Assembly: GCF_028435365.1 (NCBI RefSeq) | Contig: NZ_JAGTJJ010000002.1 | Location: forward strand, 1-64,000 | Source of the DNA: Polyangium jinanense | GTDB lineage: Bacteria > Myxococcota > Polyangia > Polyangiales > Polyangiaceae | Length of the DNA: 64,000 bases | Reading direction: 5' to 3' | Shown: positions 1 to 18,879 of the stretch, piece after piece | Numbering within the stretch: position 1 is the stretch's first letter | Layout: the number at the start of each line of letters is the position of its first letter | Position numbers and translations under genes: made by a program | Notes under the pieces: model-generated | What the model saw: only the letters and a program-made list of their open reading frames with translations | The model's database searches: none | What the model was told of the DNA's origin: nothing

Positions 1-18
1 GTCTTGCCACCGGCCTGT

Positions 19-49
19 GGGAAGAACTGCGCATCGCGCAGTTCTTCCC
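19..49. terminator. Perfect 14-bp hairpin, terminator-like
   Basis: Two perfectly complementary 14-bp arms (19-32 and 36-49) are separated by a 3-nt loop (atc). There is no clear T-run on either side, so it may be a terminator of a gene left of the window or a dispersed palindromic repeat. No gene is recognised in 1-263 otherwise. Confidence 0.5.
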
Positions 50-263
50 CCTGAGGTCCAGGGCTTGCCCTGGTTCGGGTCGAGGGGCGAACAGCCCCCG
101 CGGGGCCCGGGGCAGCGCCCCGGCGCGGCGGCCCCAAGAAGAGACCAATGCTCAGCCCTCCGGCGGTGGCACGCTGCCCCACGCGCCGGTGCCTGTCAAC
201 CCGCCTCCCAAGAGCCCTCATGTCGGAGATTTACAGAACCAGACCTCCCTGTTAGGGGGGGTG

Positions 264-1562
264 ATGGGCGTCACCGCGTTCCTCGAGTGCTACGACTCCG
301 AAAACTTCGACCCGGCCTCGGGCGGCACCGGGCTCTTCAGGACCAAGGGCCTCCTCCCGCCCGCTTGGTTTCTCTTCTTCGACGCCGCGGACTTCGCCTC
401 CGTGCGCTCGCAGCACGATGGCAGCACCTACTCGCTCCTCCGCCGCCCCGCGTCCGCGGCCGCCGCCCGCGCCCTCGAACGGCTCGAGGCGCTGAAGCCC
501 CACATCACGCCGGAGCTCGACGCCGTGCTGCGCTCGTTCCTCGCCGCCGTCGAGAAGGCTTGCGCTCCCCGCGGTCTCGGCGTGCTCGTCTTCAACACCC
601 ACCGCTTCGAGTCCACCCGGGCCGAGCTCATCGCTTGTATCGGCTGGTTCGACGCGTTCGCTGCAAAGGGCTACTCCGCTCGCCTCGCCACGCGCGCCGA
701 GTCGATCTTCGACCCCTGCGACGGCCTCGACTTCGACGAAGACGACCGGAAGCTCGACGTCGGCAACCCAGACGCGCTCTGCGGCTGGCCCTCCAGCGTG
801 ACGGACCGGGCGCCCCCCGTCGTTCCGAAGCCGCCCCCGCCCAGCGCGGACGCCAATTCTCTCGACGCCATCCTGGCGCGCCTGTGGGCCCATCCGGCGG
901 ACCTCGATGTTCGCCTCGCCTGCGCGAAAGAGCTGACCGCCCTCGGCGACCCTCGCGGCGAGTTCATCACCCTCGATTGCGCCGAGAAGCTCACCCACCG
1001 AAAGCTCAAGCGTCACGAGCAGCTCCTCGACGACGAGCGTGTGCACCACCCCTTCCGCCGCGCGCGTACCTTCCACCAAGGCCTTCCGGTCGCGGTGGAG
1101 TGGAATGCTGCGCCCGGCGATCCCCTCGTCGGCCACCCTGCCTGGTCCACCGTCGAGAGCGTGATCTTCTCCGGCCCTGTCGAGCTGCTCCCGCCCGTGC
1201 GCCAGCTGCAGGCGACGCCCGCGCTCATCCGCGCCATCGACCGGCCGGTGCCCTACGTCTCCATCTGCATGAGCGACGACAAGGACCCCGCGGCCTGGGC
1301 GGCGCTCGAATCCACCGAGCGCTTCCCGAACCTCGTCGAGGTCCGCGTCGTCGAGCCCGCGACCGTCTGGCTCCCCGAAGCGGGGCAGCGGCTCATCGCG
1401 CGGAGGCCCTCGGTGCGGCTACACGCCGGCTCGCCCCTCGTGCCACTCCCTCCGCTCACGCCCCTCACGGCCGAGGAGCACGCCGCGCGCGTCGCGCGAT
1501 GGACGAATCCGCCGGCGGCCCGCTTCCTCGAGGGGCCTCGCTACGACAACGGATTCAGCTGA
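264..1562 (+). CDS. TIGR02996-domain protein of unknown function
   Basis: The 432-residue protein has no signal peptide or membrane segment and is probably cytoplasmic. The start is the ATG at 264, directly after a G-rich ribosome-binding stretch (254-261); upstream in-frame codons have no such site. Residues about 199-240 match the TIGR02996 repeat-companion pattern: a short helix with LDAILARLW, a run of acidic and Leu residues, then GDPRGEFITL. This small domain is abundant in myxobacteria and planctomycetes and often sits next to degenerate repeats; its function is unknown. The N-terminal 190 residues (start MGVTAFLECYDSENFD) are not recognised. It stands alone, with a tandem repeat array starting 49 bp after the stop. 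Confidence 0.75.
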   Translation: MGVTAFLECYDSENFDPASGGTGLFRTKGLLPPAWFLFFDAADFASVRSQHDGSTYSLLRRPASAAAARALERLEALKPHITPELDAVLRSFLAAVEKACAPRGLGVLVFNTHRFESTRAELIACIGWFDAFAAKGYSARLATRAESIFDPCDGLDFDEDDRKLDVGNPDALCGWPSSVTDRAPPVVPKPPPPSADANSLDAILARLWAHPADLDVRLACAKELTALGDPRGEFITLDCAEKLTHRKLKRHEQLLDDERVHHPFRRARTFHQGLPVAVEWNAAPGDPLVGHPAWSTVESVIFSGPVELLPPVRQLQATPALIRAIDRPVPYVSICMSDDKDPAAWAALESTERFPNLVEVRVVEPATVWLPEAGQRLIARRPSVRLHAGSPLVPLPPLTPLTAEEHAARVARWTNPPAARFLEGPRYDNGFS

Positions 1563-1611
1563 CCGGTTCACGGGCTCCGATGCCCGCGGCACCTGGCCCG
1601 TCCTATCCGGC

Positions 1612-1856
1612 CGTGGGAGGGACCATCGGAACCTCAACGCGCTTCACCTTCGGTCGTAGGGGGGACCGTCCGAACCTCAACGCGTATCACTTTCGGTCGT
1701 GGGAGGGACCATCGGAACCTCAACGCGTATCACCTTCGGTCGTAGGGGGGACCGTCCGAACCTCAACGCGTATCACTTTCGGTCGTGGGAGGGACCATCG
1801 GAACCTCAACGCGTATCACCTTCGGTCGTAGGGGGGACCGTCCGAACCTCAACGCG
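1612..1856. repeat. 43-bp tandem repeat array, 5.7 copies in alternating A/B variants
   Basis: Five full 43-bp units start at 1612, 1655, 1698, 1741 and 1784, and a 30-bp partial unit starts at 1827. Units alternate between variant A (core GGGACCATCGGAACCTCAAC) and variant B (core GGGGACCGTCCGAACCTCAA), giving an 86-bp higher-order period. Corresponding units are nearly identical; the first differs by a few bases near its 3' end. There are no spacers. An open frame runs through the array because 43-bp pairs do not meet stops in one frame, but there is no sign of translation. Confidence 0.95.
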
Positions 1857-2083
1857 TTCTACATCACACCCTTCCCGTCACCCACGTGACCTAGCCGGGA
1901 GGCGACATCCATCCCCTCCCGAGTCTTGCCGAAACCTCGACCCCCTCCCAATTCGACCGGCGTGGCTCGCGAGTTCGGGTCCCCCAGCCCCCCCGACCTC
2001 ACGCCGCCCAGCGCCCCCTCCGCCTGCGCCTGCGCACACACTCCACCTCGACAAATCGCTTCCCCCATCGAATCGTAGTCCCC
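1857..2083. other. Intergenic region upstream of aroKB
   Basis: These 227 bp lie between the tandem repeats and the aroKB start. The stretch is C-rich on the top strand. I see no convincing promoter, hairpin or small gene here, though the aroKB promoter must lie in it or in the repeats. Confidence 0.4.
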
Positions 2084-3715
2084 ATGCCTCCGCTTCCGCT
2101 CACCCAGCCGCGCCCCCAGCGTCCCCTCCTCCTCAGCGGACTCATGGGCTCTGGTAAATCCACCATCGGCCCCCTCGTCGCCGCCCAAGCTGCGGTCCCC
2201 TTCCTCGACCTCGACGCCGTCATCACCCAGAACACGGGCCGCTCTGTCCCGGCCCTCTTCGCGGAGCCCGACGGCGAACCGGCCTTCCGCGCCCTCGAGG
2301 CGGCCACCCTCCGCGGCCTCCTCGCTTCCCCCGAGCCGCGCGTCATCGCCCTCGGCGGCGGCACCCTCCTCGACCCCGAGCTCCGCGCGTTTGCCCTTGC
2401 CCACGCGCACGTCGTCACCCTCACGGCTCGACCCGACACCCTCGCCGCGCGCACCGCCGGCCCCGGTCGACCCCTCCTCGACGAAACTCCCGACCGCCTC
2501 GCGCGCCTCCGCAGCCTCCTCGCCTCCCGCGCGCCCGTCTACGCCGAGGCCCATGCCCACATCCGGACCGACGATCGCTCGCCCGCCGACATCACCGACG
2601 CCGTCCTCCAAGCCTGGCTCGACCCCACCCTCGTCGTCCCGCTCGGCACCCGTTCCTACCCGGTTCGCCTCACCCACGACGCCCCGCGCACCCTCGCCGA
2701 GGTCGCTCGTTCCCTCGCGCCTTCCGCCGTCTTCGTCGTCACCGATGAGAACGTCGCGCCCATCGCCCTCGACCCGGTCCTTGACGCCCTCCGCACGACC
2801 GGCCTCCGTGTCCCGGCCACCGTCGTCCTTCCGCCCGGCGAAACCCACAAGCAGATGCCGGCGGTCGAGCGCATCCTCGCCGCCCTCGTCGAGTCCGGCG
2901 CTGACCGCGAATGCCTCGTCGTCGCTCTCGGTGGCGGCGTCGTCTCCGATGTCGCCGGGTTAGCCGCGTCCCTCCTCCTTCGGGGCGTCCGGTGGGTCGC
3001 GATGCCCACGACCTTGCTCTCGATGGTCGATGCGGCCGTGGGTGGAAAGACCGGCGTCGACCTCGGGGTCGCCAAGAATGCCGTCGGCACCTTCCACCAG
3101 CCCTCGGCTGTCCTCATCGACCCGGCGCGCGTTCAGACCGAGTCCACCCGGGCTTACGTCTCCGGCCTGGCCGAGGTCGTCAAGGCGGCCGCCATTGCCG
3201 ACACCTCCCTCTTCGAGCTCGTCGGCCGGGAGCGCGAGCGCGTCCTCGCCCGGGACCTCGACCTCGTTCGGCAGATGGTCCTCGGCGCGGTCCGTGTGAA
3301 GACCGCGATCGTCATCCGGGACGAGCGCGAGTCCGGCGACCGCGTCCTCCTCAACTTCGGCCACACCATCGGACACGGCCTCGAGGCGGCCGGCGCGTAT
3401 ACCCGCCTCACCCATGGCGAGGCCGTCGCGCTCGGCATGATTGCCATCCTCCGCGTCGGCCGTGCCCTTGGTGTCACCGACGCTGAGGCAGCGACGCGTG
3501 TCGAGCGCCTCCTCGTCGACCTCGGCTTGCCCACGGACCTCACGCGTGAGCCGCTCGACGAGGCGCTCCGCCTGGCCTCGCTCGACAAGAAGCGCACGGC
3601 TTCGGGGATTCGGGTCGTCCTCCTCGAAGGCCTTGGGCGACCTCGCATCGAGCTCCTCTCGCTCGAAGCGTTGGGGCGCCTCCTTCATGCGGGGATGCAG
3701 AGCGTTTCCGTCTGA
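2084..3715 (+). CDS. aroKB: Bifunctional shikimate kinase / 3-dehydroquinate synthase
   Basis: One 543-residue protein fuses two shikimate-pathway enzymes of the cytoplasm. Residues 1 to about 175 are shikimate kinase: Walker A GLMGSGKST (19-27), shikimate-binding LDLD (41-44), GGGT (91-94) and a lid Arg in GPGRPLL (127-132). From about 182 on is the NAD- and metal-dependent 3-dehydroquinate synthase that cyclises DAHP: PPGETHKQM, the ALGGGVVSDVAG dinucleotide loop, a KTGVDLG segment, and the metal-site motifs FGHTIGHGLE and THGEAVALGM. Each half has normal family length, so both are expected to be active. The two steps are not consecutive in the pathway (AroB is step 2, AroK step 5). The start at 2084 leaves a short leader before the P-loop. 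Confidence 0.95.
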   Translation: MPPLPLTQPRPQRPLLLSGLMGSGKSTIGPLVAAQAAVPFLDLDAVITQNTGRSVPALFAEPDGEPAFRALEAATLRGLLASPEPRVIALGGGTLLDPELRAFALAHAHVVTLTARPDTLAARTAGPGRPLLDETPDRLARLRSLLASRAPVYAEAHAHIRTDDRSPADITDAVLQAWLDPTLVVPLGTRSYPVRLTHDAPRTLAEVARSLAPSAVFVVTDENVAPIALDPVLDALRTTGLRVPATVVLPPGETHKQMPAVERILAALVESGADRECLVVALGGGVVSDVAGLAASLLLRGVRWVAMPTTLLSMVDAAVGGKTGVDLGVAKNAVGTFHQPSAVLIDPARVQTESTRAYVSGLAEVVKAAAIADTSLFELVGRERERVLARDLDLVRQMVLGAVRVKTAIVIRDERESGDRVLLNFGHTIGHGLEAAGAYTRLTHGEAVALGMIAILRVGRALGVTDAEAATRVERLLVDLGLPTDLTREPLDEALRLASLDKKRTASGIRVVLLEGLGRPRIELLSLEALGRLLHAGMQSVSV

Positions 3716-3796
3716 ACCCTGCGGATCTTTGCCGGCCCGGCGGCTTTCTCGATACACTGACGGTTGACCTCAGGCGTCGAGGGAGGCTCCTCCACC

Positions 3797-4540
3797 ATGA
3801 AGATCCAGCGAAGGCATATTGGCGGTGTGGCCGCGCTACTGGCGCTCGGCGGTTTGCTCGGTGCGGGGTGCGCGGAGAACCGCAGCAGCCTCTTCGTCCG
3901 TGGCGCGCTCGTGTTCGACACCGACACCTGCGGGGTCGTCGCTGAGACCACGGCTCCGACCCTCTTGCGTGGCACCCTCGACGTGGCGTTCGCCTCCGAA
4001 TACAACGCCGCGCTCCTCGTGGGCAATCAGCTCGTCCGGCGCGGCAACGCGGCGACGCTTCGCACGGAGACCTCTCGGGTCCAGTTCGAGAGCGCCGATG
4101 TGCACACCTTCGACGCTGCGGGCAATGAGCTCGGCGCATTCACGGCGCCGGCCACCGGGTTCGTGGACCCGTCCACGGGGGCCGAGCCGGGGCTTGGATT
4201 CGCCAACGTCGTCCTGGTCGACTCGGGCACCTCGGCGGCAGCGCTTGGAGCGAGCGGGGGGAGCGGCACGCCCGTCGAGGTCCTCGCCAACGTCATCATC
4301 CGAGGGCGGACGCTGGGCGGGGAGGAAGTCGCGACGGGCGAATGGCAGTTCCCGATCGACGTGTGCCGCGGCTGCCTCGTGTTTTTCCCGCCGGAGGCTG
4401 ACGACCTGTCCACGCCCGAGCGAGACTGCTTCAACCCGGCCGACGCACCGTCCGGCTTTTGCCGCCCCGGGATCGACAACGCGGTGGACTGTCGACTTTG
4501 CAGGGGCCTGGACCCGGTTTGCGACACCCCGTCTCTGTGA
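3797..4540 (+). CDS. Predicted lipoprotein, Cys-rich C-terminus
   Basis: This 247-residue protein starts at the ATG at 3797 with GGGAGG at 3781-3786; a TTG 33 bp upstream is less likely. A basic n-region (MKIQRRH), a hydrophobic core and the lipobox LGAGC (lipid-accepting Cys25) mark it as a lipoprotein. The middle is rich in Ala, Val and Thr and looks like a beta-sandwich. The last 60 residues hold seven cysteines, including CRGC and CRLC pairs, which suggests disulfides or a small metal site outside the cytoplasm. I recognise no family. It follows aroKB by 81 bp on the same strand and ends at a bidirectional terminator and parS site. Confidence 0.75.
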   Translation: MKIQRRHIGGVAALLALGGLLGAGCAENRSSLFVRGALVFDTDTCGVVAETTAPTLLRGTLDVAFASEYNAALLVGNQLVRRGNAATLRTETSRVQFESADVHTFDAAGNELGAFTAPATGFVDPSTGAEPGLGFANVVLVDSGTSAAALGASGGSGTPVEVLANVIIRGRTLGGEEVATGEWQFPIDVCRGCLVFFPPEADDLSTPERDCFNPADAPSGFCRPGIDNAVDCRLCRGLDPVCDTPSL

Positions 4541-4557
4541 GGGCGCACCGCCCCCAA

Positions 4558-4573
4558 TGTTTCACGTGAAACA
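4558..4573. promoter_or_regulatory. parS: parS site 1 (ParB-binding centromere site)
   Basis: The 16-bp palindrome TGTTTCACGTGAAACA matches the widely conserved chromosomal parS consensus (TGTTNCACGTGAAACA) at every position; the symmetry extends to 18 bp with flanking A/T. It lies between two convergent genes. The window holds two more near-identical sites within 2.7 kb and dnaN-recF-gyrB about 9 kb away, the usual setting for origin-proximal ParB loading. Confidence 0.93.
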
Positions 4574-4579
4574 TCCCCT

Positions 4580-4605
4580 CGAGACCCGTCACCGCACGGG
4601 TCTCG
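4580..4605. terminator. Bidirectional terminator hairpin
   Basis: A perfect 10-bp stem (4580-4589 with 4596-4605, arms CGAGACCCGT and ACGGGTCTCG) encloses a 6-nt loop. It lies between the convergent lipoprotein gene and the exported-protein gene and overlaps the stop codon of the latter. No long T-run follows. Confidence 0.65.
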
Positions 4606-5212
4606 TATCCTTCGAGCCTCCCCGAATCGCGTTGTAGAGGATCTGGAACGGCAAGCTCAACGCCACGAGGTCGAGCTGCGCGCCGACCACGATCGACGTC
4701 TCCCGCGAAGGCCCGAGCCCGTACCGGAACTGCGCCAGCAACCCGGCCGCGATCACGTACGAGGCGTGGAAGTTGTAGCTGCGGGTCCCCCAGAACAGCG
4801 CGCCCGCGACCCCCGGTTCGAGCCCCTGCATCGGCGCGTACCGACCGTACCCGCCCACCGACACCACGAGGGGTAACGCCTGCAGCACGGGGAACAGCGT
4901 CGACACCCCGGCCCCGAACTGCACCTCGTCGAAGGCGTGTGTCATCACCTCGGCATAGGGTCCCACGCCGAAGTCGGTCACCTTGCTCCGACCGAACAAC
5001 ACGTCCCCCCGCAGCCCCAGGTGAAAGACCGTCTGGTCCCAGATCTTTCGATCGAGCCCTCGCCCGGCCGCGCCGATCGTCAACCCGACCGTCCCTTGCG
5101 GCTCGGCCCGCGCCTCCACCCCGAACGACAGGCATCCCGCGAGCACCGCCCCGCCCACGAACGCCCGCCCAGCCAACCCAGACCGCCGCAAGCACGCCCG
5201 CCTGCTTTCCAT
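4589..5212 (-). CDS. Exported protein of unknown function, possible outer-membrane beta-barrel
   Basis: From the ATG at 5212 the protein has 207 residues; an in-frame GTG at 5230 is an alternative, since a GGGGAGG tract directly precedes it. The N-terminus has basic residues, a hydrophobic stretch and an Ala-x-Ala signal-peptidase-I-type site before EPQG, so export is likely. The mature part alternates hydrophobic and polar residues with many Gly and aromatic residues (for example FHLGLRGDVLFG, SYNFHASYVIAAGLLAQFRY), as in small outer-membrane barrels or porin-like proteins. No named family is recognised. The gene converges with the lipoprotein at 3797, with parS site 1 between them. Confidence 0.7.
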   Translation of the reverse strand: MESRRACLRRSGLAGRAFVGGAVLAGCLSFGVEARAEPQGTVGLTIGAAGRGLDRKIWDQTVFHLGLRGDVLFGRSKVTDFGVGPYAEVMTHAFDEVQFGAGVSTLFPVLQALPLVVSVGGYGRYAPMQGLEPGVAGALFWGTRSYNFHASYVIAAGLLAQFRYGLGPSRETSIVVGAQLDLVALSLPFQILYNAIRGGSKDTRPVR

Positions 5213-5258
5213 CTTCTTCCCATCACCCACCCTCCCCTACGCCGTCAAGCAACCCCCA

Positions 5259-5274
5259 CGTTTCACGTGAAACA
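5259..5274. promoter_or_regulatory. parS: parS site 2
   Basis: CGTTTCACGTGAAACA matches the parS consensus at 15 of 16 positions (first T is C). The 14-bp core GTTTCACGTGAAAC is a perfect palindrome. It lies about 46 bp upstream of the exported-protein start and 30 bp before the large inverted repeat. Confidence 0.9.
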
Positions 5275-5303
5275 TCCCCCCCACCCCCCAAGCGATCAGC
5301 GTT

Positions 5304-5540
5304 GGGAGGGAGGGTCGGAGGTGGTGGCCACCCGGAGGGGCACGAAAGAGAACCGAGCGAGGTACACCCACCTCCGAGCCTCGCGAGGCGGTCCAGTGCC
5401 AGGGGCCACCCCGCCTCCGGATGCACCCACCCGAGCGAGACGTGCGGGCGCCACCCCGCAAAGAACCCCACCCGTCCAAATCCAACCAGAACAACCCCAA
5501 GTGCCCCTCTGGGTGGCCACCACCTCCGACCCTCCCTCCC
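5304..5540. repeat. 237-bp element with 40-bp terminal inverted repeats
   Basis: The arms 5304-5343 and 5501-5540 are inverted copies with one mismatch (5334 against 5510). They begin GGGAGGGAGGGTCGGAGG and include GGTGGCCACC. The 157-bp interior has a 12-bp palindrome (GCCTCGCGAGGC, about 5375-5386) and no credible gene. No target-site duplication is visible at the ends. It resembles a miniature inverted-repeat element or a large palindromic dispersed repeat; no transposase is in the window. Confidence 0.85.
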
Positions 5541-5582
5541 CGCCTCGCATCCTGGTTCCCCGCATGGTACCGTCCCCTCGCC

Positions 5583-5906
5583 ATGGGTGGCCGTCAGGTC
5601 CAGCTTCGCATTGGCGGCCAGACATATCGGGTCGTCACCTCCGCGTCCGACGACGAGCTCCACCGCCTCACCCTCATGGTTGAGGAGAAGCTCACGCAGG
5701 TCGCCGGTCCCGGCCGCATGGTCAACCCCCAGGCTCTCCTCCTCGCGGCCCTCGCCCTCGCGCACGACCTCGAAGAAGAGCGCGCACGCCATAACGACCA
5801 GATGGCTCGCACCCGCATTGCCTTCGGCCGCATGCTTGAACGCGTCGACGCTGCGCTCGGCGCCATCGAGCCCGGCGCGGACGCATCCGACGAGGACGAC
5901 CGATGA
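5583..5906 (+). CDS. zapA: Cell division protein ZapA
   Basis: The 107-residue protein starts MGGRQVQLRIGGQTYRV, the typical beta-hairpin of ZapA, followed by the DDELHRLTLMVEEKL helix and a C-terminal helix likely to form a coiled coil. ZapA binds FtsZ and bundles its filaments at the division site. Length fits the family. Upstream in-frame codons translate the palindromic repeat, so the ATG at 5583 is the start. The stop overlaps the bioF start (ATGA at 5903-5906), so zapA is probably translationally coupled to biotin synthesis genes. Confidence 0.9.
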   Translation: MGGRQVQLRIGGQTYRVVTSASDDELHRLTLMVEEKLTQVAGPGRMVNPQALLLAALALAHDLEEERARHNDQMARTRIAFGRMLERVDAALGAIEPGADASDEDDR

Positions 5907-7024
5907 CCGAGCTTGGCGCCCTTCGCCATCTCGCGGCGGAGATTGCGACGCTCGAACAGGCTGGACTGCTTCGCAAGCCGAGCGCGCCGCCGCCGTCGGG
6001 ATGCCTCGTCCTCTGCTCGAACGATTACCTCGGATACGGAACCGACCCCTGGCCTGCGCCCGCCGAGGCTCCCTCCGGCGCTGGCGCTTCACGCCTCGTC
6101 AGCGGGCATCATGCCGAGCATGCGCTCGCCGAGCAGACGATCGCCACCTGGCTCGGGTTCGAGTCCGCGCTCCTGTTCTCGTCCGGGTACGCGGCCAATG
6201 TCGGGACCATCTCGGCTCTTGCCCGGCCGGGGGACGTCATCGTCTCGGATGCGTTGAACCACGCCTCCATCATCGATGGCTGCCGCCTCTCCGGGGCCAA
6301 GGTCGTTGTCGTTCCCCATCGGGATGCGGCTGCCGCCGAGGCTGCGCTCGAGCGGGCGCAGGGTGCGCCGCGGCGATGGCTCGTCACCGAGTCGTACTTC
6401 AGCATGGATGGCGACTCGCCCGACCTCGTTCGGCTCCGGGCTGCCTGTGACCGATGGGATGCCGCGCTCGTCGTGGACGAGGCCCACGCGGTCGGGACGC
6501 TCGGTCCCGAGGGTCGAGGACTTGCGGCGCGGGCGGGCGTTCGGCCGGACGTCCTCGTGGGGGCTCTCGGAAAGGCGCTCGGGCTTCAGGGTGCGTTCGT
6601 GGTCGGACCGATGGTCCTCCGCACCTGGCTCTGGAATCGTGCCCGTAGCTTCGTCTTCTCCACGGGCATCAGCCCCGCCCTCGCGGCCGCCATCCGGCAT
6701 CGGGTCCTCCGCGTCGCTGCCGATGACGAGGCGCGCGCTCGGCTCGACCACATCATCGACCGCCTACGCGCCGGACTCGCCTCCATCATCGGTGATGCGC
6801 TCCTCCCCTCGCATGGGCCCATCCTCCCTTGCTTCGTGGGTCCCCCGGAGGAGGCCGTTCGCATCTCGCTTCGCCTTCGCGAGCGTGGGGTCCTCGTCCA
6901 GGCCATTCGCCCCCCGACGGTCCCGCCGGGCACCTCGCGCCTTCGCGTCACCGCGCACGCGCGCCTCACCGACGCGGACCTCACTCGGATCGTCACTGCC
7001 TTCGCGGAGGGCTGGAAGCCATGA
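5903..7024 (+). CDS. bioF: 8-amino-7-oxononanoate synthase
   Basis: This PLP-dependent alpha-oxoamine synthase of 373 residues condenses pimeloyl-ACP (or CoA) with L-alanine in the first ring-forming arm of biotin synthesis. Visible motifs are the N-terminal SNDYLGYG (39-46), GASRLVSGHH (61-70), the cofactor-stacking His120 in NHASIIDG, DEAHAVGTLG (192-201) and the Schiff-base Lys224 in GALGKALG. All expected catalytic residues are present. It overlaps zapA by 4 nt and bioD by 4 nt, so the three form one coupled operon. The cluster lacks bioA, bioB and bioC, which must be elsewhere. Confidence 0.95.
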   Translation: MTELGALRHLAAEIATLEQAGLLRKPSAPPPSGCLVLCSNDYLGYGTDPWPAPAEAPSGAGASRLVSGHHAEHALAEQTIATWLGFESALLFSSGYAANVGTISALARPGDVIVSDALNHASIIDGCRLSGAKVVVVPHRDAAAAEAALERAQGAPRRWLVTESYFSMDGDSPDLVRLRAACDRWDAALVVDEAHAVGTLGPEGRGLAARAGVRPDVLVGALGKALGLQGAFVVGPMVLRTWLWNRARSFVFSTGISPALAAAIRHRVLRVAADDEARARLDHIIDRLRAGLASIIGDALLPSHGPILPCFVGPPEEAVRISLRLRERGVLVQAIRPPTVPPGTSRLRVTAHARLTDADLTRIVTAFAEGWKP

Positions 7025-7722
7025 GCCGCATTGTCGTCATTGGAACGGGCACCGGCGTCGGGAAGACCCACGCGGGGGTCGCCCTCGTCGCTGCTCTTGC
7101 ATCGGCTCGCGTCTCGGTCGCAGGCCTCAAGCCCATCGAGTCCGGCGTCCCGTCCGAGCCTTCGTCCACGATCGCGACCGACGCCTCCGCGCTCGCGGCG
7201 TTCAGCACGTTTCACGTGAAACATCCCCTTCCCTACGCGCTGCCGGATCCGGTCTCGCCGCACCTGGCCGCGCGTCGCCTGGGGATGCGCATCGATCTGG
7301 GTCGCGTGGCCGAGTGGGTTGATGCGCATGCGTGCGCGGAGGTGCTGGTCATCGAGACGGCGGGGGCGCTCCTGTCTCCGCTCGGGCCGGGGCTCGTCAA
7401 CCTGGACCTCGCACGCGTGCTGCGACCCGATCACTTGTTGCTTGTCGCTTCGGATCGGCTCGGCGTGCTCCACGATGTCGCGGTCACGCTGCATGCGCTG
7501 CGCACGATGGCCGCGGACCTGCCGGCGCCGCTCCTCGTGCTTCAGCCGCCCGCGGTGCCGGATGCGTCCACCGGGACGAATGCGGAGGAGCTCGTGGAGT
7601 TGAAGATCGTTCCGAGGCTGGTCGTGTTCCCCCGGGCCGAGACGACGGCGGAGGAGACGAGGGCGGCGGCGAAGTGGGTGCTCTCGACGCTCGCCCTCGA
7701 GGGCCAGAATCAGAAGGCGTAG
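7021..7722 (+). CDS. bioD: Dethiobiotin synthetase
   Basis: The 233-residue ATP-dependent enzyme carboxylates 7,8-diaminopelargonate and closes the ureido ring. The P-loop GTGTGVGKT (8-16), the substrate Lys/Ser segment GLKPIESG, the IETAGALLSPL loop (family consensus E-G-A-G-G) and the C-terminal PRAET segment are visible. The start at 7021 overlaps the bioF stop (ATGA). The segment S-T-F-H-V-K-H at residues 62-68 is encoded by a parS site and seems to lie in a variable loop. The 3' end overlaps, tail to tail, the last 13 nt of the gene on the other strand. Confidence 0.92.
   Translation: MSRIVVIGTGTGVGKTHAGVALVAALASARVSVAGLKPIESGVPSEPSSTIATDASALAAFSTFHVKHPLPYALPDPVSPHLAARRLGMRIDLGRVAEWVDAHACAEVLVIETAGALLSPLGPGLVNLDLARVLRPDHLLLVASDRLGVLHDVAVTLHALRTMAADLPAPLLVLQPPAVPDASTGTNAEELVELKIVPRLVVFPRAETTAEETRAAAKWVLSTLALEGQNQKA
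7208..7223. promoter_or_regulatory. parS: parS site 3, inside bioD
   Basis: CGTTTCACGTGAAACA is identical to parS site 2 and matches the consensus at 15 of 16 positions. It is fully inside the bioD coding region, and its codons specify Thr-Phe-His-Val-Lys-His. Intragenic parS sites are known from other bacteria. Confidence 0.9.
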
Positions 7723-13194: not shown

Positions 13195-13374
13195 CGCGAG
13201 AGCCCTACGTTCGGCCATTCCGTCGCGCGCGGCCACTGCAAAATCGCTCGGCGATCGCGTTTTCGTTCCCACGGCGCAAGCTCACGAGCGCGGGCGAGCC
13301 CGTGACGCACTCGGTACGCATCGGTACGCAGGTGCTCGTCTGGTCAGTCCGCGGCGCCCACAGCCGAACGGGGG

Positions 13375-13610
13375 CAAGCTGGGGATAACTTCCGGTGATC
13401 CCAGGGTCTGCCTTGGGGAGAGAACCGGGCTCGGCCGTCCCCCCGTCGAGCTCTCCCCGACCCGACCCCGGGGTTGCCCCGATTCATCCACAGGGGGGTG
13501 GCTCCGTAAGTCATCGAAATCATAGGTCGATCCAGAGTTTTCCCCATCGTCCACAGGCTCTACGATGACGACCTGATCTAGATCTAAAGATCTTCCCTAG
13601 ATCGGAGGGG
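13375..13610. other. oriC: Candidate replication origin region (oriC)
   Basis: This non-coding stretch lies between the divergent kinase and dnaN genes (13195-13725). It holds near-matches to the DnaA box TTATCCACA: TGGGGATAA at 13380-13388 (8 of 9, reverse), TCATCCACA at 13484-13492 (8 of 9) and TCGTCCACA at 13547-13555 (7 of 9), then an AT-richer patch with GATCTAGATCTAAAGATC (13575-13592). Its position next to dnaN-recF-gyrB and 6-9 kb from three parS sites fits an origin. The boxes are degenerate and dnaA is not adjacent, so this is an inference. Confidence 0.5.
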
Positions 13611-13725
13611 AACCGGTGAGCTTGGTCACGTTTGCCTCGGTCATCTTTTCGACCTTCGCCCCGCCGATAACCCTGCTAAGAGGGACCGACCCGCTGCTTT
13701 CCCGCCGCGGCGGAGTTGAAGGGCC

Positions 13726-14850
13726 ATGGACCTCGTCATCGCGAAGAAAGATCTGCTGCGCCTCGTCGACCGCTGCCAGGGCGTCGCCGACAAGAAGAGC
13801 GCCATGCCGGTGCTCGCCAACGTGCTGCTCGCCGCCGACGGGAACGCGCTGCGCGTTTCCGCGACCGACCTCTACCTCGCGGTGAGTGGTCAGACGGCGG
13901 CCGAAATCGTGAGCGCAGGCTCCGTGGCCGTTCCGGCGAAGGACCTGCTCGACCGCGTGAAGGCCATGCCCGACGGGCCCATCCAGGTGACCGCGCGCGA
14001 GGGCGCGCAGACCGTCATCAAGGCCGTCGGCTCGCCGCGCCGCTACACGCTGCACGGCATGCCCGGCAGCGAGTTCCCCCAGCTGCCGAAGCCCGCGCCC
14101 GACGCGCCCTCGCTGGAGCTACCCGTGGAGCTCCTCTCGCGGCTCATCGAGCGCACGCACTTCAGCATCTCGACCGACGAGACGCGCGCGCACGTGAACA
14201 GCGCGCTCTTCGAGTGGGCCGGCCACCGCGTCCGCATGGTCACGACCGACGGTCACCGGCTGTCCAAGATGGAGGTCACGCTGGAGGGAACGAGCGCGAC
14301 GGCGACGATGCTCATCCCGCTCAAGGCCATCCACGAGCTGCGCAGGCTCACGAGCGGCGTCGACAAGGAGACGCCCACGGTGCACATCACGCAGAGCGGG
14401 CCGAACGCGTTTTTCGGCGTCGGTGGCATGACCTTCTCGGTGAAGCTCGTCGACGCGCAGTTCCCGCCCTACCAGCAGGTCATCCCGAACGTGAGCGACC
14501 GGAGCATCCGCGCGCCGCGCGCCCAGCTCGCCGAGGCCCTGCGCGCCGTCTCGCTCGCCGCGAGCGACCGCACGGGCGGCGTGAAGCTCACGGTGACGTC
14601 GCGCGCGCTGCGCATCACGAGCGAGAGCCCCGAGAGCGGCAACGGCTTCGACGAGGTGCCGATCGACTACGATGGGCCCGAGGTGACGATCGGCTTCAAC
14701 GCGAAGTACTTCCTCGACGTGCTCGCGGCCATCAACGACGACGAGGTCGTCCTCGGCGTGTCGGGCGAGCTCGACCCTGCGGTCATCCGTCCCGCGACGG
14801 AGTCGGCGGCGGAGAGCTATGTCTCGGTCATCATGCCGATGCGGATTTGA
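13726..14850 (+). CDS. dnaN: DNA polymerase III sliding clamp (beta subunit)
   Basis: The 374-residue protein has three homologous clamp domains. It begins MDLVIAKKDLLRLVDRCQGV and contains the family segments KSAMPVLANVLL, TDLYLAVSG, TDGHRLSKME and, at the end, SYVSVIMPMRI, the usual C-terminal M-P-M/L-R motif that forms part of the partner-binding pocket. It forms the dimeric ring that tethers replicative polymerase to DNA. The ATG at 13726 follows GAAGGG. It heads a cluster with recF and gyrB on the same strand. dnaA, its common neighbour, is not in the window. Confidence 0.97.
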   Translation: MDLVIAKKDLLRLVDRCQGVADKKSAMPVLANVLLAADGNALRVSATDLYLAVSGQTAAEIVSAGSVAVPAKDLLDRVKAMPDGPIQVTAREGAQTVIKAVGSPRRYTLHGMPGSEFPQLPKPAPDAPSLELPVELLSRLIERTHFSISTDETRAHVNSALFEWAGHRVRMVTTDGHRLSKMEVTLEGTSATATMLIPLKAIHELRRLTSGVDKETPTVHITQSGPNAFFGVGGMTFSVKLVDAQFPPYQQVIPNVSDRSIRAPRAQLAEALRAVSLAASDRTGGVKLTVTSRALRITSESPESGNGFDEVPIDYDGPEVTIGFNAKYFLDVLAAINDDEVVLGVSGELDPAVIRPATESAAESYVSVIMPMRI

Positions 14851-14953: not shown

Positions 14954-16084
14954 ATGAATCGCCTCGAGCTCGAACGGCTCACCGTGCGCGGCCTTCGCGT
15001 CCTCTCGCGGGTGGACATGGAGCCCGCGCCGCGGCTCAACGTCGTGTGGGGCAACAACGGGCACGGCAAGACGAGCGTGCTCGAGGCGATTTACTTCGCC
15101 GCGACTTCGAAGAGCTTTCGAACGGCACGCGTGGGCGAGCTCGTGCGGCACGGCGAGCAGGCGGCGAGCGTGAAGGCGCGTTTCGTCGAGCGCGGCGGCG
15201 CGCTGCCGGCGCTGTCGCGCGAGCAGACGGCCGCGGTGCAGGGCAAGAGCGTGACCGTGCGCATCGACGGCAATCGGCCGCGCGCGCTCGTCGAGTACGC
15301 GACGCGCTCGCCCGTCGTGGTGTTTCATCCCGAGGAGCTCACGCTGTCGAGTGGACCGGCGCAGGGACGGCGCACGCTGCTCGACCGGCTCGCGCTCTTC
15401 ACACGGCCCGAGAGCGCAGATGCGCGCGCGCGGTATGCACATGCGCTCAAAGCACGGCAGGAGCTCCTGCGGCGCGGCGCGGACATACCTTCGAGCGATA
15501 CACGTGAGCTCGATGCGTTCGAGGAGCTCTGCGCCGAGCATGGCGCGGCCCTCACGCGGGCGCGCGCAGCCGCGGCCGAAGCGCTCGTGGTCGAGCTCGG
15601 GAGTGCGTTCGCGCAGATCGCCGCGCCCGACCTCCGCCTCGAAGCGCGATATGCGCCGGGAGGCTCGGCCGACGTGGAGACCGCGCGCGGCGAGCTTGCG
15701 CGGGGCCGAAAGCGTGATGCGTTCCGCGCGTCGGCGGGGTTCGGCCCGCATCGCGACGAGCTCGAGCTCTTGCTGGATGGGCATCCGGCGCGCGTGGTCG
15801 CGTCGCAGGGACAACATCGCGCGCTCACGCTCGCTCTCAAGGCGGCCGAGACGGCGACGATCGCCAAAGAGCGGGGCATCGAGCCCTTGCTCTTGCTCGA
15901 CGACGTTTCGAGCGAGCTCGATCCGGAGCGCACGGGCGCGCTCTTTTCATTCCTCGCGCTCCATCGCGGTCAGATTTTCCTGACGACCACGCGCCCCGAG
16001 CTCATCCGCGCCGAGGACATATCGGCCGAGGGACGGCGTGACTTCCGCGTGTTTCGGGGCGAGCTCGACGAGGGCGCGGGCTGA
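14954..16084 (+). CDS. recF: DNA replication and repair protein RecF
   Basis: The 376-residue SMC-like ATPase loads RecA at single-strand gaps together with RecO and RecR. The Walker A GNNGHGKT (33-40), the following SVLEAIYF helix, the RRTLLDRL segment, the ABC-like SQGQHRALTLALK signature and the Walker B LLLLDDVSSELD are all visible. Length matches the family. The start at ATG 14954 gives the standard short first strand (LELERLTVRGLR). A hairpin covers its ribosome-binding site. It lies 103 bp after dnaN, and gyrB follows after 257 bp. Confidence 0.95.
   Translation: MNRLELERLTVRGLRVLSRVDMEPAPRLNVVWGNNGHGKTSVLEAIYFAATSKSFRTARVGELVRHGEQAASVKARFVERGGALPALSREQTAAVQGKSVTVRIDGNRPRALVEYATRSPVVVFHPEELTLSSGPAQGRRTLLDRLALFTRPESADARARYAHALKARQELLRRGADIPSSDTRELDAFEELCAEHGAALTRARAAAAEALVVELGSAFAQIAAPDLRLEARYAPGGSADVETARGELARGRKRDAFRASAGFGPHRDELELLLDGHPARVVASQGQHRALTLALKAAETATIAKERGIEPLLLLDDVSSELDPERTGALFSFLALHRGQIFLTTTRPELIRAEDISAEGRRDFRVFRGELDEGAG

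Positions 16085-16174: not shown

Positions 16175-18879
<2,705 letters not shown>

Follow-up and report, generated by a model that had tools for sequence, protein, structure and literature searches.

A putative parS cluster near dnaN in Polyangium jinanense, with one site read in frame within bioD

The window, i.e. the whole stretch of 64,000 nucleotides of Polyangium jinanense DNA that was analysed, carries a block of biosynthetic genes followed at some distance by replication genes. At the left of this block lies an aroK-aroB fusion (2084..3715, + strand), which scores above the cut-off of TIGR01357 and also has shikimate-kinase matches. A conserved small gene on the minus strand (4589..5230) gave no match in family searches; many relatives also have it in this block. 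A zapA-like cell-division gene (5583..5906, +; PF05164, 44 bits) shares an ATGA overlap with bioF (5903..7024, +), encoding an 8-amino-7-oxononanoate synthase with TIGR00858 as top match (360 bits, below the cut-off of 426). A further ATGA overlap connects bioF to bioD (7021..7722, +), encoding a dethiobiotin synthetase. The latter matches PF13500 and, with 79.4 bits, falls just below the TIGR00347 cut-off of 83.3; a profile of 14 BioDs including that of the window matches solved dethiobiotin synthetases. Downstream, dnaN (13726..14850, +), recF (14954..16084, +), and gyrB (16285..18879, +) are identified by TIGR00663, TIGR00611, and TIGR01059, respectively, all above cut-off.

Three palindromes, for which a sequence-only reading had given full agreement with the parS consensus at position 4558 and agreement at 15 of 16 bases at 5259 and 7208, were recovered exactly so by a motif scan of the whole window. 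Site 1, TGTTTCACGTGAAACA (4558-4573), has no mismatch, is a perfect palindrome, and occupies the gap between the convergent genes at 3819-4540 (+) and 4589-5230 (-). Sites 2 (5259-5274) and 3 (7208-7223) have the sequence CGTTTCACGTGAAACA with one mismatch each; site 2 lies between the minus-strand gene, which is thus flanked by sites 1 and 2, and zapA. Site 3 lies within bioD, where it is read in frame as the codons ACG TTT CAC GTG AAA CAT, i.e. T FHVK H, residues 63-68. The same scan, allowing up to three mismatches, detected no further parS-like site in the window. The number of sites is beyond chance since dinucleotide shuffles predict 0.05 sites and none of 100 shuffles reached three. The distance to dnaN, earlier put at about 6-9 kb, is 6.5-9.2 kb, with the sites upstream of the gene.

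The distribution of the sites was followed in 59 genomes, consisting of G001, the genome nearest to the window (13.4 Mb), and further relatives. An even spread around the genome, which the sequence-only reading had named as evidence against its proposal, was not found in G001: with up to two mismatches, parS occurs there at four places, all in the gene neighbourhood equivalent to that of the window. They surround aroKB or fall within bioD, and the two contigs that carry them are joined by gene order. Four sites are present in all six same-genus genomes (G001-G006), and the positions equivalent to sites 1 and 2 are occupied in all six. The fourth site lies beyond aroKB in five of them; in G004 it is on a different contig. 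Aligning the window with G001 would place its fourth site about 0.6 kb to the left of base 1. The exact parS 14-mer is present in 44 of the 59 genomes with one to eight copies each, while a control 14-mer of reversed pattern had no match in any of the 59. In 29 of the 32 genomes with at least two sites, these share one contig within about 16 kb. Among the 15 genomes lacking the exact 14-mer, seven have GTTKCACGTGMAAC forms (single-copy in five), one has GTTYCACGTGRAAC forms on two contigs, and seven have neither form; neither ParB nor a parS site was found in G028. At up to three mismatches, 32 places were found in G006 (control, 6) and 20 in G025 (control, 26), so that weaker sites elsewhere are conceivable in some genomes. 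On four chromosomes, parS and dnaN are 5-33 kb apart; G033 has them 52 kb apart, and in G026 a variant site lies 59 kb from dnaN. Within the neighbourhood, the positions vary by genome and include the region upstream of zapA, the start of bioF, bioF codons 46-62, the N-terminus of bioD, bioD codons 54-71, and the region downstream.

No match to ParA or ParB was obtained in the window by tblastn with same-genus queries. A lack of parB, which had been named as fatal to the centromere reading, does not apply to the relatives, as the ParB family was found in 57 of the 59 genomes. ParB of the same-genus genome G006 matches solved ParB chains, with 7bnk as the best and also 6t1f, which we take to be a Caulobacter-type ParB chain. 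Among 52 parB loci from 39 genomes, parA adjoins parB in every case, and all 52 retain the arginine and glycine of parS specificity, equivalents of positions 173 and 201 placed through the motifs GK.R and GHAR. R173 and G201 are described as absolutely conserved among ParB orthologues (PMC7383237). The earlier statement that parAB lies outside the window holds but falls short, because in relatives the operon is not merely outside but megabases away from parS. On five complete or near-complete chromosomes, all from relatives, parB lies at 34.2 (G006), 35.6 (G025), 48.9 (G037), 45.4 (G049), and 45.3% (G060) of the circle, measured to parS rather than to the putative oriC. In 22 of 22 loci, no parS 14-mer with up to two mismatches occurs in the 18-20 kb around parB. 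These five chromosomes depart from a feature that a ParB review lists as conserved, namely that par operons, like most parS sites, lie in the ori domain (PMC7022226). From the relatives we infer that the genome of the window also has parB and a distant parAB.

Judged from these sequence comparisons, the palindromes are very probably parS centromere sites of a chromosomal ParABS system, forming a ParB loading zone of a Polyangium-like chromosome. The proposal of an origin-proximal loading zone gains support from the confinement of the sites in G001 and from the prevalence of ParB; proximity to the origin itself would follow from the position of dnaN.

The DnaA box has the sequence TTATCCACA. 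A candidate oriC is the intergenic region upstream of dnaN (13290..13725, unstranded), which contains the DnaA-box-like motifs TTATCCCCA (13380-13388, -), TCATCCACA (13484-13492, +), TTTTCCCCA (13538-13546, +), and TCGTCCACA (13547-13555, +), of which the last two have two mismatches to the box. An origin in this region, beside dnaN and 6-9 kb from the parS sites, appears to fit the data best. The palindromes could also be parS on a chromosome replicated from dnaA. As 0.7-1.25 Mb separate dnaA from parS in three of the four chromosomes tested, the centromere would then lie 6-10% of the chromosome from oriC. This arrangement is considered rather unlikely, although two observations speak for it. 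Upstream of dnaA, boxes with at most one mismatch are denser than upstream of dnaN: four of six same-genus loci have three within about 105 bp, and the remaining two loci have two each, against one upstream of dnaN in five of six same-genus loci, none in G002, and two in the window (background, 0.029 per kb). Furthermore, the side of dnaA on which dnaN is found and the orientation of dnaN are both reversed between G006 and G025, as expected from a symmetric inversion about dnaA. The boxes do not discriminate between the two genes as origin; their number favours dnaA.

Against an origin at dnaA stands the suggestion that Sorangium cellulosum has its oriC adjacent to dnaN and almost 2 Mb away from dnaA (PMC8538405). 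In Pseudomonas aeruginosa, parS has to be located in a region of some 650 kb surrounding oriC, and the study reporting this cites tolerated distances of 650 kb for Vibrio and 400 kb for Caulobacter (PMC5098823). In G049, moreover, dnaA, dnaN, and parS are found together within 0.12 Mb. The noisy skew of G037 is negative in both stretches sampled on the right-hand side of dnaA (0-20 and 90-100 kb) and positive at 0.8-2.0 Mb; it brackets a switch very roughly between 0.1 and 0.9 Mb, an interval with dnaN and without dnaA. It is counted as weak because of this noise and of opposite-sign values at 2.8, 8.4, 10.2, and 11.33 Mb. GC skew, strand-corrected and taken at four-fold sites, was rejected as a means to place oriC, as G037 (30 stretches) is noisy and the sampled stretches of G025 (20) and G006 (22; 0.9-8.4 Mb unsampled) show no usable switch.

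The site within bioD raises the question of whether the protein or the DNA is conserved. In 39 BioD genes, comprising that of the window and 38 named loci, 17 bear the exact in-frame site encoding FHVK at one shared alignment column. It is very unlikely that FHVK is kept for the enzyme and the palindrome is a by-product, even though the residues are in frame at one column and some BioDs without the exact site retain part of them, namely FHVT in L243, L259, L260, and L262 and, more loosely, LHAKH in L270. The exact site is absent from 22 of the 39 BioDs, whose residues at this place are otherwise highly variable, and the base change behind FHVT in L259, L260, and L262 also occurs in a second copy outside BioD. 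In addition, all 17 exact sites use TTT CAC GTG AAA despite TTT and AAA being minor codons (21% and 22%), and FHVK is coded by TTTCACGTGAAA in 19 of 20 occurrences in the called ORFs of the f1 loci. Among more distant BioD loci, 17 cover the region and all of them lack the site; an eighteenth, L275, ends before it. On a quick tree of the 39 BioDs, built with the four site columns removed, presence and absence of the exact in-frame site require eight changes, against a mean of 13.0 after shuffling, and none of 500 shuffles gave so low a number. Strongly supported branches force only two, so that one ancestral in-frame origin with subsequent losses is compatible with the tree.

That the palindromes are transcription-factor operators for zapA-bioF-bioD and neighbouring genes might be suggested by their position beside and within one gene block in many genera, but is extremely improbable given that their sequence is the general parS consensus, that their places shift between genomes rather than keeping to a single promoter, that bioD is some 3 kb away from them in G017 and G018 and was not found at their locus in G023 and G038, and that a parS-specific ParB is present with no other site near parB.

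ParB binding, CTP-clamp loading, and segregation at parS are general features of ParABS systems and are extended here to the window. ParB supplied in trans by the distant parAB operon would bind the parS sites, close as a CTP clamp, and slide into adjacent DNA. Because the clamps would be moved by ParA and SMC would probably be loaded, the parS region would separate first after replication. Site 3 would be of dual use, kept as DNA in bioD while the protein accommodates the dictated FHVK. As a tentative reading, which may well not hold, Polyangia could possess a split ParABS, with the centromere by dnaN and zapA-bioF-bioD, one copy co-evolving in an enzyme gene whose amino acids follow the centromere, and parAB on the far, late-replicated side. 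If so, ParAB dosage would be a readout of replication progress, and the parS cluster would be the best origin marker where GC skew is hard to read. In giant genomes of the Sorangium type, where skew is of little help, the cluster may serve as an independent handle on the start of replication, and the bioD site would be a natural example of a centromere-shaped protein segment in which parS turnover can be traced through codons. A search of the openly licensed literature, not made by the name Polyangium and with a bioD query swamped by unrelated words, yielded no report of parS inside bioD or of parAB far from parS.

The 16-bp parS palindrome is the same in Bacillus, Caulobacter, and Pseudomonas as in the window. 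The chromosomal systems of these genera resemble that of the window and its relatives in having few sites, clustered near replication genes, and a parS-specific ParB (in the relatives), whereas in the relatives parAB lies outside the parS region and one site is conserved in frame in bioD. Myxococcus xanthus belongs to the same phylum, and the Polyangium-type ParB matches solved ParB chains best. In M. xanthus, 22-24 parS sites with the consensus TGTTCCACGTGGAACG are located upstream of parA, about 30-35 kb from ori (PMC3899335, PMC3778016). Such an array was not found here: the sites number one to eight, belong to the GTTTCACGTGAAAC type, and lie close to dnaN, and parAB is distant; a GTTYCACGTGRAAC search in 25 genomes detected GTTCCACGTGGAAC only in G054, in one copy. 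An oriC adjoining dnaN is also known in cyanobacteria. The locus shares with Sorangium cellulosum a dnaN that is apart from dnaA, and a clear inversion of GC skew is likewise missing from the 22 stretches sampled in same-genus G006. Compared with the suggestion made for Sorangium cellulosum, parS would be an additional, independent indication of an origin on the side of dnaN.

The three parS-like palindromes proposed by the sequence-only reading lie at 4558-4573, 5259-5274, and 7208-7223, where they had been placed, one of them perfect and the other two matching at 15 of 16 positions. Three are present compared to 0.05 expected from shuffles, and no further palindrome with up to three mismatches was found in the 64-kb window. 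From left to right, the window encodes an aroK-aroB fusion, a gene without family matches, a small gene on the minus strand, and zapA-bioF-bioD with ATGA overlaps between the genes, with dnaN, recF, and gyrB further to the right. It is Polyangium-like, its BioD being 90-95% identical to BioD of four Polyangium records. The absence of parAB from the window was also stated correctly, as tblastn with ParA and ParB queries from the same genus gave no match. Judged from sequence, the palindromes are a real parS cluster with predicted ParB loading, as had been proposed.

The confinement of the site was examined in G001, the nearest of the relatives used. The 13.4 Mb of G001 contain four places that match the 16-mer with no more than two mismatches; one is in bioD, and the other three lie in the neighbourhood of aroKB and the small gene. 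These places span two contigs joined by gene order. About 0.008 exact copies of the 14-mer core would be expected in a genome of this size from base composition alone. The exact 14-mer was found in 44 of 59 genomes (G001 and relatives), with exactly four copies in all six genomes of the genus. In 29 of the 32 genomes with at least two sites, all of these fall on a single contig and no more than about 16 kb apart, and in G001, G004, and G015 they are divided between two contigs. With up to three mismatches, near-sites occur elsewhere as well; the matching places number 32 in G006 versus 6 for the reversed control and 20 in G025 versus 26.

Five of the six same-genus genomes carry a site beyond aroKB; in the sixth, G004, it is on a different contig. 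Counting on from the stretch aligned to G001, a fourth site is predicted about 0.6 kb to the left of base 1 of the window. The stretch 209-1576 (about 1.37 kb) is unmatched at the corresponding place in G001, and its ORF at 189-1562 has no Pfam matches. Directly upstream of aroKB lies a tandem array (1608-1857) whose unit is either 43 or 86 bases long; counted in 43-base units it has 5.8 copies, and G001 has matching repeats.

The third site lies inside bioD (7021-7722, plus strand). The exact site in the window's frame, encoding FHVK at one alignment column, is present in 16 of the 28 loci from relatives in which bioD is recognisable and in 17 of 39 members of a second, overlapping set (38 named loci and the window), which covers Polyangium, Sorangium, Labilithrix, Polyangiaceae, and other Myxococcales or uncultured delta-proteobacteria. 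It is absent from 18 more distant BioD loci (14 labelled as other phyla or classes, one unspecified, and three from Myxococcota or Deltaproteobacteria), one of which, L275, ends before the region. All 17 BioDs with the exact in-frame site use the codons TTT CAC GTG AAA, which also encode 19 of the 20 FHVK occurrences in called ORFs of the family f1 loci. TTT and AAA are minor codons in f1 loci (21% of Phe and 22% of Lys), and their shares in the window are 11% and 13%, respectively. Four further BioDs have FHVT, from GTTTCACGTGACAC; in L259, L260, and L262 a second site about 1.2 kb upstream shows the identical change, and in L243, also with an FHVT BioD, the upstream site is unchanged. In L259 (Myxococcales bacterium 68-20), L260, and L262 (Labilithrix sp.), both cluster sites are this asymmetric parS-like variant. 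Other loci have the site in bioF, in an intergenic position, or at the N-terminal end of bioD, where it is read as VSRET. Alignment to solved dethiobiotin synthetases puts FHVK ahead of the SPH motif, in a stretch of weak conservation. We read the bioD site as one at which selection would act on the DNA, with a protein that tolerates FHVK.

The exact 14-mer is absent from 15 of the 59 genomes. Seven of these have GTTKCACGTGMAAC forms (one copy each in G019, G026, G041, G050, and G056; two in G042 and G055), G054 has GTTYCACGTGRAAC forms on two contigs, and seven, including G028, have neither. The parS-like sites of G041, G042, G050, G055, and G056 (families f5 and f6) and of G019 and G026 read GTTGCACGTGAAAC or GTTGCACGTGCAAC (or the complement). 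Since variant forms replace the exact 14-mer in some genomes, the parS sequence is probably drifting in part of the order; a single-copy variant site may be due to chance.

ParB, the presence of which the proposal presupposes, was checked in the relatives, and a TIGR00180 match was obtained in 57 of 59 genomes, the exceptions being G014 and G028. Each of the 52 parB loci examined, from 39 genomes, has parA next to parB and encodes an R and a G at the ParB positions that correspond to residues 173 and 201; a passage of PMC7383237 describes these as absolutely conserved among ParB orthologues. ParB of G006 contains ParB_N, HTH_ParB, and ParB_C domains and matches solved ParB chains.

Two candidate origins, upstream of dnaN and at dnaA, have to be weighed. 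In G006, G025, G037, and G049, parS is located 9.5, 18.4, 4.8, and 32.6 kb from dnaN versus 1.25, 1.18, 0.72, and 0.115 Mb from dnaA, respectively; G049 has a second, weaker dnaN match 3 Mb away. In G033, parS and dnaN are 52 kb apart, and a variant site in G026 lies 59 kb from dnaN. Within the genus, the sequence preceding dnaN is well conserved, and it has DnaA-box-like motifs. For Sorangium So ce56, a 2021 review (PMC8538405) reports that the usual GC-skew inversion is absent and that oriC has been suggested to adjoin dnaN, with dnaA nearly 2 Mb away. The DnaA boxes are better upstream of dnaA than of dnaN, with three (up to one mismatch) within about 105 bp in four of six same-genus loci (L084, L085, L086, L089) and two in L087 and L090; this cluster could reflect autoregulation or an origin. 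Sampled GC skew favoured neither side in G006 and G025 and weakly favoured the dnaN side in G037. Altogether, we consider it likely that the origin lies at dnaN. On the plus strand of window positions 1-5900, four-fold-site GC skew is negative in all five called ORFs (-0.07 to -0.60), in four of them beyond -0.27; it is -0.21 in bioF and near zero or mixed from bioD on.

With up to two mismatches, the 14-mer does not occur in the 18-20 kb around parB in any of 22 loci. The parAB neighbours in G006 are lon, clpX, clpP, and tig, and a homologue of at least one of these lies beside parAB in 16 of 17 f1 loci (exception G026) and in none of five loci outside f1. On five chromosomes that are complete or nearly so, parS and parB are separated by 4.52 Mb in G006 (34.2% of the circle), 4.36 Mb in G025 (35.6%), 5.57 Mb in G037 (48.9%), 4.69 Mb in G049 (45.4%), and 5.10 Mb in G060 (45.3%). 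The latter, Sorangium cellulosum So ceGT47, carries just one exact site, which precedes the matched BioD start by 18 bases. Random placement would give five distances of at least 34% with a probability of 0.003, although the cut was set after the fact and the five chromosomes are related. A review (PMC7022226) describes it as a conserved feature that par operons, like most parS sites, are found within the ori domain. The parS cluster of the window is of a known kind, and its unusual parts are the distant parAB, as seen in relatives, and the copy embedded in bioD.
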